From Enorma massiliensis phI (GTDB lineage Bacteria; Actinomycetota; Coriobacteriia; Coriobacteriales; Coriobacteriaceae), in contig NZ_HE978575.1 in assembly GCF_000311845.1 (NCBI RefSeq), forward strand, positions 208,715 to 272,714: 64,000 nt of DNA. Direction: 5' to 3'. Of this stretch, positions 7,577 to 62,195 are shown piece after piece. The notes beneath the pieces were generated by a model. That model was not told the DNA's origin, ran no database searches, and was given only the letters and a program-made list of their open reading frames with translations. The translations under genes and the position numbers were made by a program. How positions within the stretch are numbered: the first letter of the stretch is position 1; each line of letters opens with the position of its first letter.

Positions 7577-7831
7577 TTATTCCACGGTGCCGTATACGCC
7601 GCCCCAGCCGTGAGCGGCGATTGCGGAATTGAGCTGGTCGCAGAGCCGCTGGCGCTCGTATGAGCCGGGAGGGAGCAGCGAGACGATTTCCTGGAGGTCG
7701 GCATCGAGGTCGAGGACCTCGGCTTGCATCACGAGGTCGAGCCGGTCGACGACGGTGCGTGTGGCATAGAGCCCGTCGACGAGGCTTTGCAGCTCGCCGT
7801 AGGATTCTGCCCGAAACGACGCCATGTCCAT
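7577..7831 (-). CDS. Small hypothetical protein
   Basis: An 84-residue frame starting MDMASFRAESYGELQ, with the strong site GAGGAGGATTCC directly before the ATG. It contains an acidic helical middle (MQAEVLDLDADLQEIVSLL) and ends GWGGVYGTVE. No domain recognised and no transmembrane helix. The same frame stays open far upstream, antisense to the aminotransferase gene, but only this segment has a ribosome-binding site. It heads the two-gene minus-strand unit with the helical protein at 7068-7484 and is divergent from the aminotransferase. Confidence 0.65.
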   Translation of the reverse strand: MDMASFRAESYGELQSLVDGLYATRTVVDRLDLVMQAEVLDLDADLQEIVSLLPPGSYERQRLCDQLNSAIAAHGWGGVYGTVE

Positions 7832-7911
7832 GGAATCCTCCTCATTCGTTGGTGGGCTCATTTTCCCCGTTTGCCGTGCGCCGCGCAAGATGCGGCACGG
7901 CTGCGCCCGCG

Positions 7912-7934
7912 ATGTCCAGATCTCGCCCGAGAAC
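7912..7934 (-). repeat. Single unit of the 30-bp family B repeat
   Basis: The sequence here reads ATGTCCAGATCTCGCCCGAG and then AACG. It matches the inverted units of the arrays at 20767-20950, 24771-24952 and 33130-33253. Only one unit is visible, in the divergent promoter region before the aminotransferase gene. Confidence 0.6.
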
Positions 7935-8122
7935 GTCGGAGCATGCGTCTCTGCGTTGGACGGCTGGGGTGCTGGCTCCCTCTTTGGCGGTGGAACGGAT
8001 ATTGTGTTTCGATACGCTGGCAAGCAGCGCGTTCCTCCAAGAACTCGGTATACTGTCCCGGGATAACGCAACGAATATGCGTCACGACCCGGCAAACGGG
8101 GAGACGCGGGGTGGAGGAGCGC

Positions 8123-17141: not shown

Positions 17142-19976
17142 ATGTTCTGCACGAATTGCGGCAGCAAATTGCCGGACGATGTGAAGTTTTGCACGCAATG
17201 CGGCGCTCCGGTGACGAAGGTGATTCCCCGGAGCGAACTCGAGAAGCAGCAGGCAGAGCAGGCGGATGAGCCCGTGCAACCGGCGGAGGAGCCGGCGGCT
17301 GGTACGGAGGCTGCATCGGCTGTGGGAGCCGCACCTGCAAACCAGGCTGCGCCGGCCGAGCAGGCCGTGCCCACCGCGTCCGCCGCGCAGGCTGCGCCAA
17401 TCGAGTCTGCTGCGCCGGTCACGCCTGCCGGGCAGGTCGCGTCGGCTGATTTCGTCACGCCTGCCGCGCAAGCCGATGCCGCTCTCGTCGAGGATGCCGC
17501 AGCCGCAAAGCCCGCGGTCGAAGGGGAGGCTCCGATGCCAGCGAAAGAGCCGGTGGCAGAGGTCGCCGCGTCGCCGCTCGATACCGATGCCGCGAGCGAT
17601 ACGCCGACAACCGTGCTGGGCGCGGACGACCATGAGGGCCCAAACGATGCGCCGACGACCGTTCTCTCCGCCGATGAAGCGGCTGCTGATGCCGCCAGCG
17701 AGGACGAGACGAGCGTATTCGTTATCGACGATGATGCCAGCGAGGATGAGACGACGGTGCTCCCGCCCGCACCCGATACCGACGAAGCGGAGCGCGCGGT
17801 GGCCGCCGCCGACGCCGCTGCCGCCGAGGACGCCCTGTGGTCCGAGCTGCCCGAGGACGAGCCGACCACCTTGCTGGGCCAGAGCCCCGCGCCGGCCGCA
17901 TCCGGCGATGCCGCCGGTCCTCTGCAGGTATCGTGGCGGCAGCCCCCGCAGCAGGCGACGCCCACACAAACGGCTTCCGCTGAGACACCCGGCCCGCAGC
18001 CGGCGACGGCTCCCGGCGCGGAGCCGCGTAAGAAAAAGCCCGTGGCGCTCATCGCGGGCATAGCGGTGCTGGCGCTTGCGGCCGTCGTTGCATTGTGCGT
18101 GTTCGTCGTGCCGCGTTTTCTGGATGCCGCAGGCCCAACCGTGACCTACGGCCAGACGGACCCGGTGCAGTGCTCGGTGGTTACGCGTATTCGCCCGCGC
18201 GACGCCGAGGGCAACGAGCTCACCTCGTATGTCGTGAGCCTTGTCGAGCGCACGGCTGACCGCCAGGATCGCACGAGCGCAGACGACGGCATCGCCGATG
18301 CCGTGGCGCAGATTCGCGTAACGGGCAACAACGGCTTTACCATGGAAGACTTCGGCGACGATATCGCGGATGGCGACTACTACCTCGTTATCGAGCCCTC
18401 GGATTCTTCGGATGATAGCTCGAGCGACCAGCGCATTCCCATCCATTATGAGCACGATAACCCCGACGCCGATTCGGAGGTCGTAGTCACGCCGCCCGCA
18501 CCTGAATCCGATGAGCCCGCTTCAGACGGTGAGAGCCAAGATGGCGAGGACGCACAGGACGAGGCAGAGTTCACCGAGGAGCAGCTCGCCTACGCGCACT
18601 ACTACCTGAAGTGCCAAGAGCTCATCGATGCCTATGGCCCCGCGGGCACGACGAATCTCTACGACGGCCAGATGACTGCCATGACGGGGCTCGCCCTCGC
18701 GAAGCTCATCGACTTCGATGACGACGGCTTGAACGAGCTCCTCGTCTCATATAACGCTGTGCAGATCGGCACGGACGCCGCGAGTGCCGGCGAGGTCTAC
18801 CCCGTCGAGGTTTGGGATTACCAAGACGGCGAACTCGTGCAAGTTTACGAGGGCAATGCTCCGTACACGAATGGCGGTGCGTACTTCCTCGATCTCTATG
18901 AGTATAATGACCTGCCGGTGATCTGCGCCGTGTGGTACGACATGCAGGTCGATAACGCGAGTCTGATCGACGAGTACACGGGCTACTTCTCGCAGGTGAG
19001 CGAGACGCTCGATGCGATCGCCGTGCGCGATTCGTTCTTCAATTACGACACCGGTGAGAATTCCGTGACCTACACGCTCGACGGGGAGAGCGCTACCGAG
19101 GAGGAGTGGAACGACTTCGAGGACGACCTTGACCACACGACCCATTACGACCTCGCGCTCTTCAACAACGCCGTCGAGGCGGAATCCACGGACGACGATG
19201 AGTGTGAGACGCTCTACGGCGAGGACCTGCGCGCGGCGACGGAGGATACGTTCGCGGAGCTCCAGGAGGGAGCAGGCGATGCGCTCGACGCCGTCGATGC
19301 CGCCAAGGGGGACGCCTCCTACGATTACGAGATCGTCGAGGAGGACGTGACCTACACCTCTTCACAGGGGGAGGGGATGGAGTGGGAGGCCACCTCGACG
19401 TGGTGCTACCCGCAGTTCACGCTGGCAGACGGCTCCACGACCCCGGCGCTCGATTCGCTGAATGCCCAACTTAAGGAATCGTTTGACCAGGACGTCGCCA
19501 ACGCGCAATCGTGGACGTTCGAATCGGGCGAGGTGCAGATACAGGTGCACCGCGATACCGTGACGTACCACGAGGGAACGATTGTGTGCGTGCGGAGCGA
19601 TCGAAGCGGCTTTACCGGCGGCGCGCACGGCACCGAGAGCGTGACGGGCACGTTCTACGATTTGGACACGGGCCAGCAGGTGGGGATCGAGACGGCGACG
19701 GGCGTTTCGCTCGATGAGCTGAAGAGCGCTGCGGTCAGCGCGGTGCTCGATTACATTGCCGCGCAGCCCAATGGCACGCTGAGCACCGATGAGGAATCGC
19801 TCAACACCCTCATCGATGAGGAACGGTTCTACGCGGACGAGAACGGTATCGTCGTGGCGCTGTGGCCGTACGAGATCGGTAGCTACGCGGACGGCGTGCA
19901 ACTCGTGTACGTGTATGCATTCGACGATGACTCGATCGTGGGCACCAACGCCGGCTCGTTTGAGTGGGGGAATTAA
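17142..19976 (+). CDS. Zinc-ribbon membrane protein with DUF3298-like extracellular domain
   Basis: A 944-residue protein. Order: a Cys4 zinc ribbon at residues 3-22 (CTNCG, CTQCG), about 270 residues of Ala/Pro/Glu/Asp-rich disorder with several TTVL repeats, and one membrane helix near 300-325 (VALIAGIAVLALAAVVALCV). An acidic beta-rich extracellular region follows, then a C-terminal domain with SGFTGGAHGTE and FYDLDTGQQV, resembling the DUF3298/RsiV family that can bind lysozyme. The TTVL segments (SDTPTTVLGAD, DAPTTVLSAD, EDETTVLPP, DEPTTLLGQ) look like repeated phospho-Thr/FHA-type motifs, which is inference. The ATG follows GGGAGGG. Its stop overlaps the tmk start. Confidence 0.78.
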   Translation: MFCTNCGSKLPDDVKFCTQCGAPVTKVIPRSELEKQQAEQADEPVQPAEEPAAGTEAASAVGAAPANQAAPAEQAVPTASAAQAAPIESAAPVTPAGQVASADFVTPAAQADAALVEDAAAAKPAVEGEAPMPAKEPVAEVAASPLDTDAASDTPTTVLGADDHEGPNDAPTTVLSADEAAADAASEDETSVFVIDDDASEDETTVLPPAPDTDEAERAVAAADAAAAEDALWSELPEDEPTTLLGQSPAPAASGDAAGPLQVSWRQPPQQATPTQTASAETPGPQPATAPGAEPRKKKPVALIAGIAVLALAAVVALCVFVVPRFLDAAGPTVTYGQTDPVQCSVVTRIRPRDAEGNELTSYVVSLVERTADRQDRTSADDGIADAVAQIRVTGNNGFTMEDFGDDIADGDYYLVIEPSDSSDDSSSDQRIPIHYEHDNPDADSEVVVTPPAPESDEPASDGESQDGEDAQDEAEFTEEQLAYAHYYLKCQELIDAYGPAGTTNLYDGQMTAMTGLALAKLIDFDDDGLNELLVSYNAVQIGTDAASAGEVYPVEVWDYQDGELVQVYEGNAPYTNGGAYFLDLYEYNDLPVICAVWYDMQVDNASLIDEYTGYFSQVSETLDAIAVRDSFFNYDTGENSVTYTLDGESATEEEWNDFEDDLDHTTHYDLALFNNAVEAESTDDDECETLYGEDLRAATEDTFAELQEGAGDALDAVDAAKGDASYDYEIVEEDVTYTSSQGEGMEWEATSTWCYPQFTLADGSTTPALDSLNAQLKESFDQDVANAQSWTFESGEVQIQVHRDTVTYHEGTIVCVRSDRSGFTGGAHGTESVTGTFYDLDTGQQVGIETATGVSLDELKSAAVSAVLDYIAAQPNGTLSTDEESLNTLIDEERFYADENGIVVALWPYEIGSYADGVQLVYVYAFDDDSIVGTNAGSFEWGN

Positions 19977-20833
19977 TGGCGGAGGAGATTGTCGAGCCAA
20001 CCGGGCCTGCGGTCGCTGAGGCCCTTTGCGCGAGCGGGGAGCCGGCGGGCGTGGAGCCGCTGGCCGCGGAGCCGACGGCAGCAGAGCCGCTGGCTGCAGG
20101 GCCGCTGGCAGCGGAATCGCTGGCTGCAGAACCGTCGGCAGCAGCGAGTTTTCCGGAGCAGCCCGCCATGCCCCGCTTCATCACGCTTGAGGGCATCGAT
20201 GGGTGCGGCAAATCCACGCAGGCGAAGCTTCTGGCTGAGGACCTCGAGCGCGCGGGCTACGACGTGCTGCTCCTGCGTGAGCCGGGTGGCGTGACCATAT
20301 CGGAGAAAATACGCGAGCTCCTGCTCGATCCGGCGCACGCAGCGATGAGCGACACCTGCGAGCTCCTGCTGTACGAGGCGGCGCGCGCTCAGCTCGTTCA
20401 CGAGGTGGTTGCTCCCGCTCTTGCTCAGGGGCGCATCGTGGTGTGCGACCGCTTCTATGATTCCACGACCGCCTACCAGGGCTATGCCAACGGGATGGAT
20501 CTCGGTGCAGTGCAGCGGGCTAACGCGCTCGCCGTTGGCGCATGCCACCCGGATCTCACGCTCGTTTTCGATATCGACCCAGCCAAGGCCGCTGCTCGTG
20601 CAGCCGCGCGCGACCGCGCCCAGGACCGCATGGAAGCCAAGGGGCTTGCCTACCAGGAGCGCGTGGCGGCCGGCTTCCGCGCAATTGCTGCCGCAGAGTC
20701 TGAGCGGGTTCGTCTTGTCGACGCCAGCCGCGGTATCGACGCAATCCATGCCGACGTTCGCGCCCTCGTTCTCGGGCAACAATTGGACACTGAGGGTGTT
20801 TTCGGGCGAGGTTTGGACATTGAGGGCGCATAA
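19976..20833 (+). CDS. tmk: Thymidylate kinase with repeat-derived extensions at both ends
   Basis: This 285-residue kinase converts dTMP to dTDP. Core motifs: P-loop GIDGCGKST at 73-81, the DRFYDSTTAYQG block, and an Arg-rich LID (RAAARDRAQDRME). A usual Tmk is about 210 residues and would start at MPRFITLEGID (ATG 20168). Here the frame starts at an ATG overlapping the upstream stop (TAATG at 19974-19978). Most of the extra N-terminus is six 15-bp repeats encoding EPLAA-like units (20056-20145). The last 22 or so residues (VLGQQLDTEGVFGRGLDIEGA) are encoded by two 30-bp family B units. If translation starts at 20168 the repeat would be a leader only. Confidence 0.92.
   Translation: MAEEIVEPTGPAVAEALCASGEPAGVEPLAAEPTAAEPLAAGPLAAESLAAEPSAAASFPEQPAMPRFITLEGIDGCGKSTQAKLLAEDLERAGYDVLLLREPGGVTISEKIRELLLDPAHAAMSDTCELLLYEAARAQLVHEVVAPALAQGRIVVCDRFYDSTTAYQGYANGMDLGAVQRANALAVGACHPDLTLVFDIDPAKAAARAAARDRAQDRMEAKGLAYQERVAAGFRAIAAAESERVRLVDASRGIDAIHADVRALVLGQQLDTEGVFGRGLDIEGA
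20056..20145 (+). repeat. Six tandem 15-bp units inside the tmk 5' extension
   Basis: Units start at 20056, 20071, 20086, 20101, 20116 and 20131, each a variant of GCCGCTGGCTGCAGA. The period is a multiple of three, so gains or losses keep the frame. It encodes an Ala/Pro/Glu-rich stretch. Confidence 0.85.
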
Positions 20834-20950
20834 CGTGGCGATATTCCGCTCGAAGACGCCGGGAATGTCCGAATGGCGCCCGAAGACGCGCCCAGCGTCC
20901 GGATATCGCCCGAGAACGTGCCGCATGGCGGAAAGCCGCCCGAAGACGCG
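20767..20950. repeat. Family B convergent 30-bp array, copy at the tmk end
   Basis: Direct CGGGC units at 20773 and 20803 are followed by inverted GCCCGA units at 20878, 20908 and 20938, all exactly 30 bp apart; a decayed unit lies between (20833-20858). The direct units supply the tmk C-terminus and stop codon. The inverted half lies in the tmk-holB gap. Confidence 0.8.
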
Positions 20951-24750: not shown

Positions 24751-24770
24751 GAGCGCGCCGCGCTGCGCCG

Positions 24771-24952
24771 CTTTCGGGCGCATTCCGGACGCTCCGCTCG
24801 TCTTCGGGCGACATACGGACACTGTCGGCGTTGTCGGGCGACATTTGGACACTCGATTCGTTTTCGGGCGATAATTTGCCATCTGGGAGGCTCTGAGCGT
24901 CCAAATCTCGCCCGACAACGCCCATGATGTCCAAATCTCGCCCGACAACGCC
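24771..24952. repeat. Family B convergent 30-bp array, best copy
   Basis: CGGGCG ends at 24780, 24810, 24840 and 24870, an exact 30-bp period, with conserved GGACACT about 15 bases on. The array then flips: CGCCCGA occurs at 24909 and 24939, also 30 bp apart, preceded by GTCCAAATCT. At the flip, TTTGCCATCTGGGAGGCTCT leads into GAGCGTCCA, closely matching the flip at 33175-33203. The spaces between units are not unique like CRISPR spacers. Confidence 0.88.
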
Positions 24953-25047: not shown

Positions 25048-25399
25048 TATAATTCCCCTCGTCCTCCCAGGCTGTGGTTGCGGGTGCGCCGCGCGCATCC
25101 TAGTCCATGACAGACGCGGTCAAAGGGACCCACGTAAGCACGCGTGTGCGCATGCGTGCGATCATGGCGCGTCCTAGAGGTAAGTCGCACCGTCCGTTTC
25201 TAGGGGCAATTCCGCCCCGCGGGCGAGCGGACAAGTCGTGATGCCATCGCGGTGGCTGAGCAAACGTTCCAGTGCGCAGGTGTGGGGGAAAAGACCAGGT
25301 CAGCTGGAGGACATCGCAAAAGGACCGCTTGCTTTCGTGGCGAGCGGAGCTCATAGGGTTGGCGCCGATTCCGGCGCGTGGGATGAAGAGGATCGCGCG
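25048..25399 (+). other. Long 5' leader upstream of the binding lipoprotein gene
   Basis: A TATAAT box at 25048-25053 (no clear -35) is followed by about 340 bases before the next start codon. The stretch is rich in short self-complementary runs, for example GGTCAAAGGGACC near 25117 and CTAGGGGCAATTCCGCCCC near 25201. I compared it mentally with T-box, SAM, TPP, cobalamin, RNase P and tmRNA signatures and saw none. It may be an uncharacterised structured leader; a 44-codon frame starting MTDAVKGTHVS at 25107 is also possible. Confidence 0.35.
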
Positions 25400-28135: not shown

Positions 28136-28152
28136 GGAACGATCCATTTGAT

Positions 28153-28208
28153 CCATTTTGGGACGGGTTCAAAACGACTCATTTTGGAACGGGGTCAAAA
28201 CGGGTCAT
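28153..28208. repeat. Family E repeat, copy 1 (two direct units)
   Basis: CATTTTGGGACGGGTTCAAA, then CGACT, is followed 26 bp later by a second unit with CATTTTGGAACGGGGTCAAA. The unit matches, on the opposite strand, the palindrome at 47379-47440. It lies in the 91-base gap between the DegV gene and the dehydrogenase gene and covers the likely 5' UTR. Confidence 0.7.
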
Positions 28209-33008: not shown

Positions 33009-33053
33009 TGAGCATTACAGCGTACGGTCTGTTGCGATAGGAAGATAGTTTGA

Positions 33054-33090
33054 GGGACCGGAGCCGTTGTCGCTCCGGTCCCTTTTGTTT
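33054..33090 (+). terminator. Rho-independent terminator
   Basis: GGGACCGGAGC (33054-33064) and GCTCCGGTCCC (33072-33082) form a perfect 11-bp stem with a 7-base loop, then TTTTGTTT. It ends the SurA-like gene transcript. Confidence 0.9.
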
Positions 33091-33129
33091 GCCGAGTTTG
33101 CTTGCCGGGCGGGATTCGGGCGCGCCCTG

Positions 33130-33253
33130 CGTTTCCGGGCCTAATCCGGACATTGCCGGGGTTTTCGGGCGACAATTCGCCATTTTGAGGGGTCTGAGCG
33201 TCCAGATCACGCCCGAGAACGAATTACATGTCCAAAAGTCGCCCGGCAACGCG
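33130..33253. repeat. Family B convergent 30-bp array, copy before tRNA-Thr
   Basis: CGGGC occurs at 33136 and 33166, then inverted GCCCG at 33211 and 33241, both pairs exactly 30 bp apart. The flip segment TTCGCCATTTTGAGGGGTCT, then GAGCGTCCA, closely matches that of the 24771-24952 array. It lies between two terminators, so it is not obviously within a transcript. Confidence 0.85.
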
Positions 33254-33321: not shown

Positions 33322-33397
33322 TGGAGCCAGCAATCGGACTCGAACCGATGACCCCCGCTTTACGAGAGCGGTGCTCTACCAACTGAGCTATGCTGGC
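33322..33397 (-). tRNA. tRNA-Thr (anticodon CGT)
   Basis: A 76-base cloverleaf read leftwards. The acceptor GCCAGCA pairs with TGCTGGC before TCCA, so the CCA end is encoded. The D-arm is GCTC...GAGC, the anticodon stem CCGCT/AGCGG encloses CTCGTAA (anticodon CGT), the variable loop is short, and the T-arm is ATCGG-TTCGAGT-CCGAT. It reads ACG threonine codons. A promoter lies upstream and a terminator downstream, so it is a single-gene transcript. Confidence 0.97.
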
Positions 33398-54768: not shown

Positions 54769-55070
54769 CGAACGCGGCGACGCGGCACCCGCGCATTCAC
54801 GGGCGCTTTGCCGCAGCGCCATCGCGTTTGCGGGCGCCCCACAGCGGTGCCACTGCGTTCACGGGCTATTTACGGGCGCCTTCCAATGGCACCATCGATT
54901 TTCGGGCAGGAAATCGCAGAAAAGAGGGGCTATAAAAAACTCTATTCTGCGATATTCTGCCCGTTAACGTTTGGCTACGAATAGCGTGCTGGCGAGATGC
55001 CGTACTCGTTGCCCGCTCAGCACGCAGCCGCGTTGCGCGGCCGCCTTCCCGTCGCAATCTGCTAGCCGGC
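54769..55070. repeat. Repeat-filled gap with family D hairpin, copy 2
   Basis: No gene. CGGGC occurs at 54800, 54831, 54862, 54873 and 54903, mostly 30-31 bp apart, in units like GCGCCATCGCGTTTGCGGGC. The last unit opens the hairpin 54903-54963: CGGGCAGGAAATCGCAGAA pairs with TTCTGCGATATTCTGCCCG (17 of 19), around a loop containing GAGGGGCTATAAAAAACTC. It lies between convergent lacC and a DeoR gene. Confidence 0.75.
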
Positions 55071-61820: not shown

Positions 61821-61966
61821 AGAGGTTTCAAATAGGGGAGGGGAGTGCCGTGGTAACGGCTTCGTTGCAGCAACAGAACTGGAGTGGCAACGGGGTCGGC
61901 GCCGCAGCAGTAGCGCCACCCGAGCACCTTCTCGTACATCCATCCGCCCACACGCTATTGCATTTT

Positions 61967-62027
61967 CGGGCAGGAATTCGCCGAAAAGAGGGGTTATTAA
62001 TAGCTCAATTCAGCGATTTTCTGCCCG
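61967..62027. repeat. Family D hairpin repeat, copy 3
   Basis: CGGGCAGGAATTCGCCGAA pairs with TTCAGCGATTTTCTGCCCG (16 of 19), around a loop with GAGGGGTTATTAATAGCTC. The loop pattern GAGGGG-YTAT...CTC is shared with copy 2 at 54903-54963. Confidence 0.8.
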
Positions 62028-62066
62028 AAAACTTTTCCGTCTAGTGGGGGATAGCCTGGTTGGGGG

Positions 62067-62195
62067 TTCGCCCAGCTGAAAGACTTCGACCGGCTGGGTT
62101 CGCCCGGCTGGAAGACTTCGCCCAGCTGGATTCGCCCAGCTGGAAGGTTTCGCCCGGCTGGTCTTGTCCTGTTGGAGGGTTCCATCCAGCTGAGG
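62067..62195. repeat. Tandem repeat upstream of pyk, 14- and 18-bp units
   Basis: TTCGCCCAGCTGGAAGAC-type 18-bp units alternate with shorter 14-bp forms (TTCGCCCAGCTGGA) over about 130 bases, with CAGCTG/CGGCTG as the core. No gene is present. The 740-base gap 61712-62453 thus holds a hairpin, a family D copy, this tract and the pyk promoter region. Confidence 0.7.

Follow-up and report, generated by a model that had tools for sequence, protein, structure and literature searches.

Convergent arrays in the window

The 64,000-nucleotide stretch of the Enorma massiliensis phI genome analysed here (the window) contains three arrays in which direct copies of a 30 bp unit are followed by inverted copies, so that the two sets converge; no strand is assigned to these two-armed features. 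Array 1 (24767–24952; PWM scan and repeats) is located directly after a comF-like gene and before a raiA RNA. Its four direct units start at 24767, 24797, 24827 and 24857, the last being the innermost and of the 'GCCAT' type, and a 6 bp centre (24887–24892) separates them from two inverted units starting at 24893 and 24923. The raiA RNA (Rfam RF03072, 150 bits) occupies 25061–25312, directly to the right of the array. Array 2 (20765–20950; PWM scan) overlaps the 3' end of a thymidylate kinase ORF (19964–20833) and consists of two direct units (20765 and 20795), a centre at 20825–20830 and four inverted units (20831, which is of the GCC type, 20861, 20891 and 20921). Array 3 (33098–33253; PWM scan) sits between an apparent terminator hairpin (33053–33083) and a tRNA gene (33325–33397), with three direct units (33098, 33128 and 33158, the last of the GCC type), a centre at 33188–33193 and two inverted units (33194 and 33224). 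The steps between units are exactly 30 bp throughout, and the flip, measured between the starts of the two innermost units, is 36 bp in each array, which bears out the exact period and convergence described for these loci in the initial annotation. The unit counts given there, 4+2 and 2+4, stand for arrays 1 and 2, whereas array 3, which had been read as 2+2, is 3+2, the unit at 33098–33127 having been overlooked. A conserved flip segment had also been described; this is real in part, and corresponds to a specialised innermost GCCAT unit facing an inner unit that ends in GCTCAG.

Outside the arrays, the single unit previously placed near 7912–7934 is present on the minus strand at 7908–7937 (PWM score 33.1), upstream of the part of a plus-strand ORF (7724–9403) that encodes a conserved aminotransferase domain. 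A possible degenerate 1+1 pair (61959–62035; no strand assigned) has a left unit of the GCC type (PWM 16.3) and a right unit at 1.4, such that only the left unit scores; its centre is A+T-rich and its flip of ~47 bp (36+11) is one helical turn greater than 36 bp. To the right of this pair, a separate short tandem family, TTCGCCCRGCTGG, occupies 62064–62170 with a spacing of alternately ~18 and 14 bp (lag 32). A weak unit on the plus strand (54854–54883; PWM score 13.3) adjoins a degenerate repeat stretch with a 31 bp lag that begins at 54769, and is possibly a decayed array. The two-unit pattern has five matches in the window and none in 100 dinucleotide shuffles. At the Rfam gathering score no family in the window corresponds to the arrays, the only matches being the raiA RNA and one tRNA. 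Elsewhere in the window, approximately four tandem 19 bp units (GCCAGGTGGGGCGACGCTT) lie in a short intergenic stretch at 1237–1316.

Size and geometry of the family

A search of the whole 2,280,503 bp genome (three contigs), as had been proposed, revealed further copies in which the 30 bp period holds: the family comprises ~36 arrays, a total that counts two seen only by profile search, and more than 200 units. The one-unit pattern, allowing at most one mismatch, has 98 matches genome-wide compared with three for a reversed control, and the PWM, trained on units with 209 distinct sequences, gives 210 hits at a score of 11 across 36 loci, compared with none in the reversed sequence. The unit is asymmetric, with the 30 bp consensus GGCGTTnTCGGGCGAnATTcGGACACTC, and each array carries between one and seven units per side, all pointing to the centre. 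Of 142 same-strand neighbours, 119 are spaced by exactly 30 bp and nine more by 29 or 31 bp, and 30 of the 31 convergent flips measure 36 bp, the remaining one 35 bp. Every two-armed array has its direct units first and its inverted units second; a divergent arrangement was seen nowhere among neighbouring units. Six of the eight spacings of 32–58 bp are of 39–42 bp, that is, 30 bp plus about one helical turn, a pattern which is suggestive but was spotted post hoc in just these eight spacings.

Array copies are only ~60% alike, and apart from one local pair at locus L042, 3 kb apart, there are no recent copies of whole arrays. Positions 1, 16, 29 and 30 of the unit carry almost zero information, and the free stretch amounts to ~7–10 bp per unit. 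The innermost units are specialised: GGAC gives way to GTAC in 11 of 62, and 15 of 62 are of the GCC type, features found in none of the 58 units at the second position. The tails of the inner units (GCTCRG) together with a 6 bp centre close to RGGCYY form a central palindromic core, with a consensus of approximately GGACGCTCRG-RGGCYY-CYGAGCGTCC.

The arrays are mostly intergenic and often nearer to gene 3' ends. Using a home-made gene caller, whose calls are approximate, 20 arrays were placed between co-directional genes, nine between convergent and four between divergent genes. Clustering of arrays along the genome is unconvincing (p 0.10–0.17), and the GC skew of array loci is weak. In agreement with the earlier view that no associated gene accompanies all copies, no one family is common to the genes beside the arrays, and none of the families listed is an obvious transposase.

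Tests of hairpin and coding origins

The convergent arms raise the possibility that the arrays act as RNA or extruded-DNA hairpins, serving as terminators, RNase sites or protection for mRNA 3' ends, in which case the arms exist in order to pair. Consistent with this, array 1 folds far better than its shuffles (z −7.4) and many arrays are nearer to gene 3' ends. However, any array folds strongly because its arms share one motif, and none of the tests for selected pairing departs from its control. The Watson–Crick identity of innermost mirrored units is 0.611 compared with 0.627 for shuffled partners (p 0.88; second pair p 0.58), covariation between the arms of 26 aligned arrays is 0.170 against a shuffle mean of 0.171, and native arms fold at −65.6 kcal/mol compared with −65.0 kcal/mol for chimeric arms (p 0.33). 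Within the unit, the position pairs that an imperfect palindrome would require (7–16, 8–15, 9–14 and 6–17) likewise show pairing only at the column-shuffled level across 204 units. Since opposite arms pair no better than the arms of unrelated arrays, a selected RNA or DNA hairpin is disfavoured, and with it the suggestion in the initial annotation of a selected fold with dyad symmetry. The location of array 3 beyond an apparent terminator hairpin, and of another array within coding sequence, also argue against a hairpin function, which we regard as improbable.

Both 30 and 36 are multiples of three, and the units could instead have originated as codon repeats. At least one frame is open in all 28 arrays with at least four units, and one array is translated in frame within an open gene. 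Against this, nearly all arrays are intergenic, and their stop codons are not depleted, with 105 observed and 112 expected from column composition (sd 7). This match to column composition refutes a coding origin as a general account of the family, and we consider such an origin highly improbable.

Insertion, distribution and length change

Comparisons with relatives covered the three window loci and loci L037, L043 and L046, with one genome per species. The siblings are syntenic at roughly 65–90% nucleotide identity, and the sites of the window arrays are empty or shorter in them. The arrays thus behave as insertions in the host lineage, although empty sibling sites alone would also fit loss in the siblings. 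Gain, rather than loss elsewhere, is indicated by two arrays that meet coding sequence. At L043, an array with six direct units and five inverted ones (336 bp, equivalent to 112 aa in frame) separates the two ABC domains within a 1009 aa protein, a fused ABC-ABC-EcfT (two ABC domains plus CbiQ/EcfT); the orthologous ORFs in four siblings are 829–866 aa, and the array was judged absent from them on the basis of this length. In the window, the C-terminus of thymidylate kinase (tmk) runs on into the sequence of array 2, whereas the orthologue in the same-genus genome G003 ends at once.

Three other genomes of the genus (G001, G002 and G004) have zero profile matches; in G003 the profile search found a single truncated array together with one weak remnant. 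Across 67 genomes of the family and 396 of the phylum, the two-unit pattern is at background level except in G003 and in G211, which belongs to another genus. The repeat family is restricted to the host genome and to DNA apparently from its lineage. In G003 (contig C18; L147 2950–3020), a decayed 1+1 pair resembling these units lies next to a GAGACAGTT repeat, a hint that the family may predate the E. massiliensis lineage. Also in G003, a deletion of ~1.26 kb relative to L037, either real or an assembly artefact, begins within an MFS gene and extends into the array (L078 3640 compared with L037 1885–3142). In G002, the comF–raiA gap syntenic to array 1 (L142 1410–1650) contains a different repeat, GAGTCAATTGAACCCGTCCCCAATGACTC, and the repeat family housed in this gap therefore varies from one species to another.

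G211 contains a 6 kb stretch that is 90% identical to L046, array included, from which we infer that this array moved between lineages together with its flank; contamination of the bin is the alternative. The two arrays differ by exactly one 30 bp unit, and the single unit in the host genome (G000) resembles a join of the two present in G211. Across the family, a similarity of 80% or more is reached by 9 of 119 pairs of adjacent units, compared with 1.9% of random pairs, such that neighbours are over-similar. Taken with the L046 pair, this supports a change of copy number, one of the two options raised earlier, by whole units. Identity between L046 and G211 is 89/96 in the array and 192/203 in flanking intergenic DNA, with several of the changes at conserved positions. 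The array is thus no more alike than its flank, and no present constraint is apparent on it.

Search for a mobilising activity

No mobiliser was found in the host genome by examination of RAYT and rve genes, neighbouring genes, array tips or target duplications. Three Y1/RAYT hits are present in the genome, with other repeat motifs around them and no family unit within ~1.5 kb on either side, and no rve-type transposase gene adjoins an array. The 40 bp outside the outermost unit carry no information that would indicate conserved tips. Flank matches average 4.94, compared with 4.89 for permuted flanks, and so give no sign of a target-site duplication, although the flanks are old and such a signal may have eroded. 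The two-unit pattern occurs in none of 2.9 million viral contigs; the one-unit pattern matched two, as single units only. Plasmid and phage searches returned no match to the array pattern, and a sequence search of the literature returned one chance match, in a Drosophila paper, and no published match to the family. At 28140–28200 the window also contains a REP-like GGGACGGGTTCAAAACG repeat, and the GGGACGGG motif of this repeat recurs close to two of the Y1/RAYT hits (L151 and L152, out of three), so that the repeat probably represents the genome's RAYT-linked family.

Discussion

The strict spacing, the fixed flip and the specialised centre are retained across copies even though the free positions no longer resemble one another, which points to a protein of constant footprint that recognises the arrays as double-stranded DNA. 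If the free positions were diverse from birth, this argument from spacing would be weaker. Our preferred reading of these sequence patterns, to which we give a probability of about one half, is that the arrays are lineage-specific short-repeat inserts, placed in the manner of REP or RPE elements, whose units may act as phased sites for a putative DNA-binding protein. Each unit would be a candidate site for a sequence-specific protein, and both spacing and flip would be kept because the bound proteins need to occupy one constant side of the helix and come together at the dyad. Unequal exchange between units would lengthen and shorten the arrays, and a putative mobilising activity would carry them to new loci. 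This reading has to contend with the lack of a genomic or gene context shared by the arrays, with the negative results for a mobiliser, conserved tips and target-site duplications, and with the L046 array, which is no better conserved than its flank. The recognising protein could be a binding protein of the host or the mover that the family itself uses, and the data fit both.

A related explanation dispenses with host function altogether, and takes the arrays as a selfish, non-autonomous mobile repeat (MITE-, REP- or RPE-like) whose mover recognises the geometry and whose copies then decay. Gains at new loci, some of them inside genes, together with restriction to one species, the lack of a gene context common to the arrays, and the existence of a decaying array and of isolated or weak units, are all in keeping with such a repeat. 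It sits less well with the lack of conserved ends or target-site duplications, with copies so divergent that the L042 pair is the sole recent whole-array duplication, and with the separation of the arrays from the three Y1/RAYT genes and the rve-type transposase genes. We consider it somewhat unlikely. More doubtful still is the proposal that the arrays are dispersed nucleoprotein elements of a new class, in which convergent, helically phased asymmetric sites around a palindromic core, spread within a lineage by their own mobiliser, would have an organising effect on DNA or transcription at some three dozen loci.

The family keeps its spacing and dyad near-invariant across ~36 divergent copies without a palindromic unit, a linked transposase or covariation between arms, and 'inverted arms' and 'hairpin' are here separable as selected traits. 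With one motif at ~200 sites, it offers a clear bait for a binding-protein search, and both the in-frame insertion and the single-unit length change can be tracked in strains. Should there be no binder, the arrays would exemplify a mobile repeat whose strict geometry is maintained solely by its mover.

The majority of short repeats in bacteria are REP-type palindromes associated with RAYT transposases. The present family resembles REP, BIME and REPIN elements in being composed of short, dispersed, mostly intergenic and species-specific units, in tens to hundreds of copies, that form inverted pairs and clusters. In those systems the unit is palindromic, carries GTAG/CGTC as a terminal tag and is associated with RAYT (PMC3733652, PMC3116915), whereas the unit described here is neither palindromic nor tagged, is repeated several times per arm at a 30 bp step, and is unlinked to RAYT. 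Rickettsia palindromic elements are dispersed inverted-repeat inserts of 100–350 bp which can sit in frame inside genes (PMC10969869). The arrays are likewise dispersed inverted-repeat inserts, one of them in frame in a gene; RPE are often genic, however, whereas here there is one clear case and one C-terminal extension among ~36 arrays. The unit-array anatomy also differs, a separation made by description and not by sequence. A regular repeat period is shared with CRISPR arrays, of which no repeats are reported in E. massiliensis phI (PMC3746427). The original judgement that this is not a CRISPR layout holds, as orientation flips in each two-armed array, the free stretch is only ~7–10 bp per unit and the arrays are scattered. 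Like MITEs, the arrays are short non-coding inserts with inverted arms, but they lack conserved terminal repeats and detectable target-site duplications, and the number of units out to the end varies per arm. Phased multi-site protein arrays are familiar from plasmid iterons and centromeres, and from transposase end arrays of the Mu, Tn7 and IS21 type. These share with the present family asymmetric sites of 20–30 bp, fixed spacing and opposed sets; what distinguishes the family from them is that it adjoins no replication, partition or DDE-transposase gene and that it exists as three dozen dispersed copies, strictly convergent on a fixed core.
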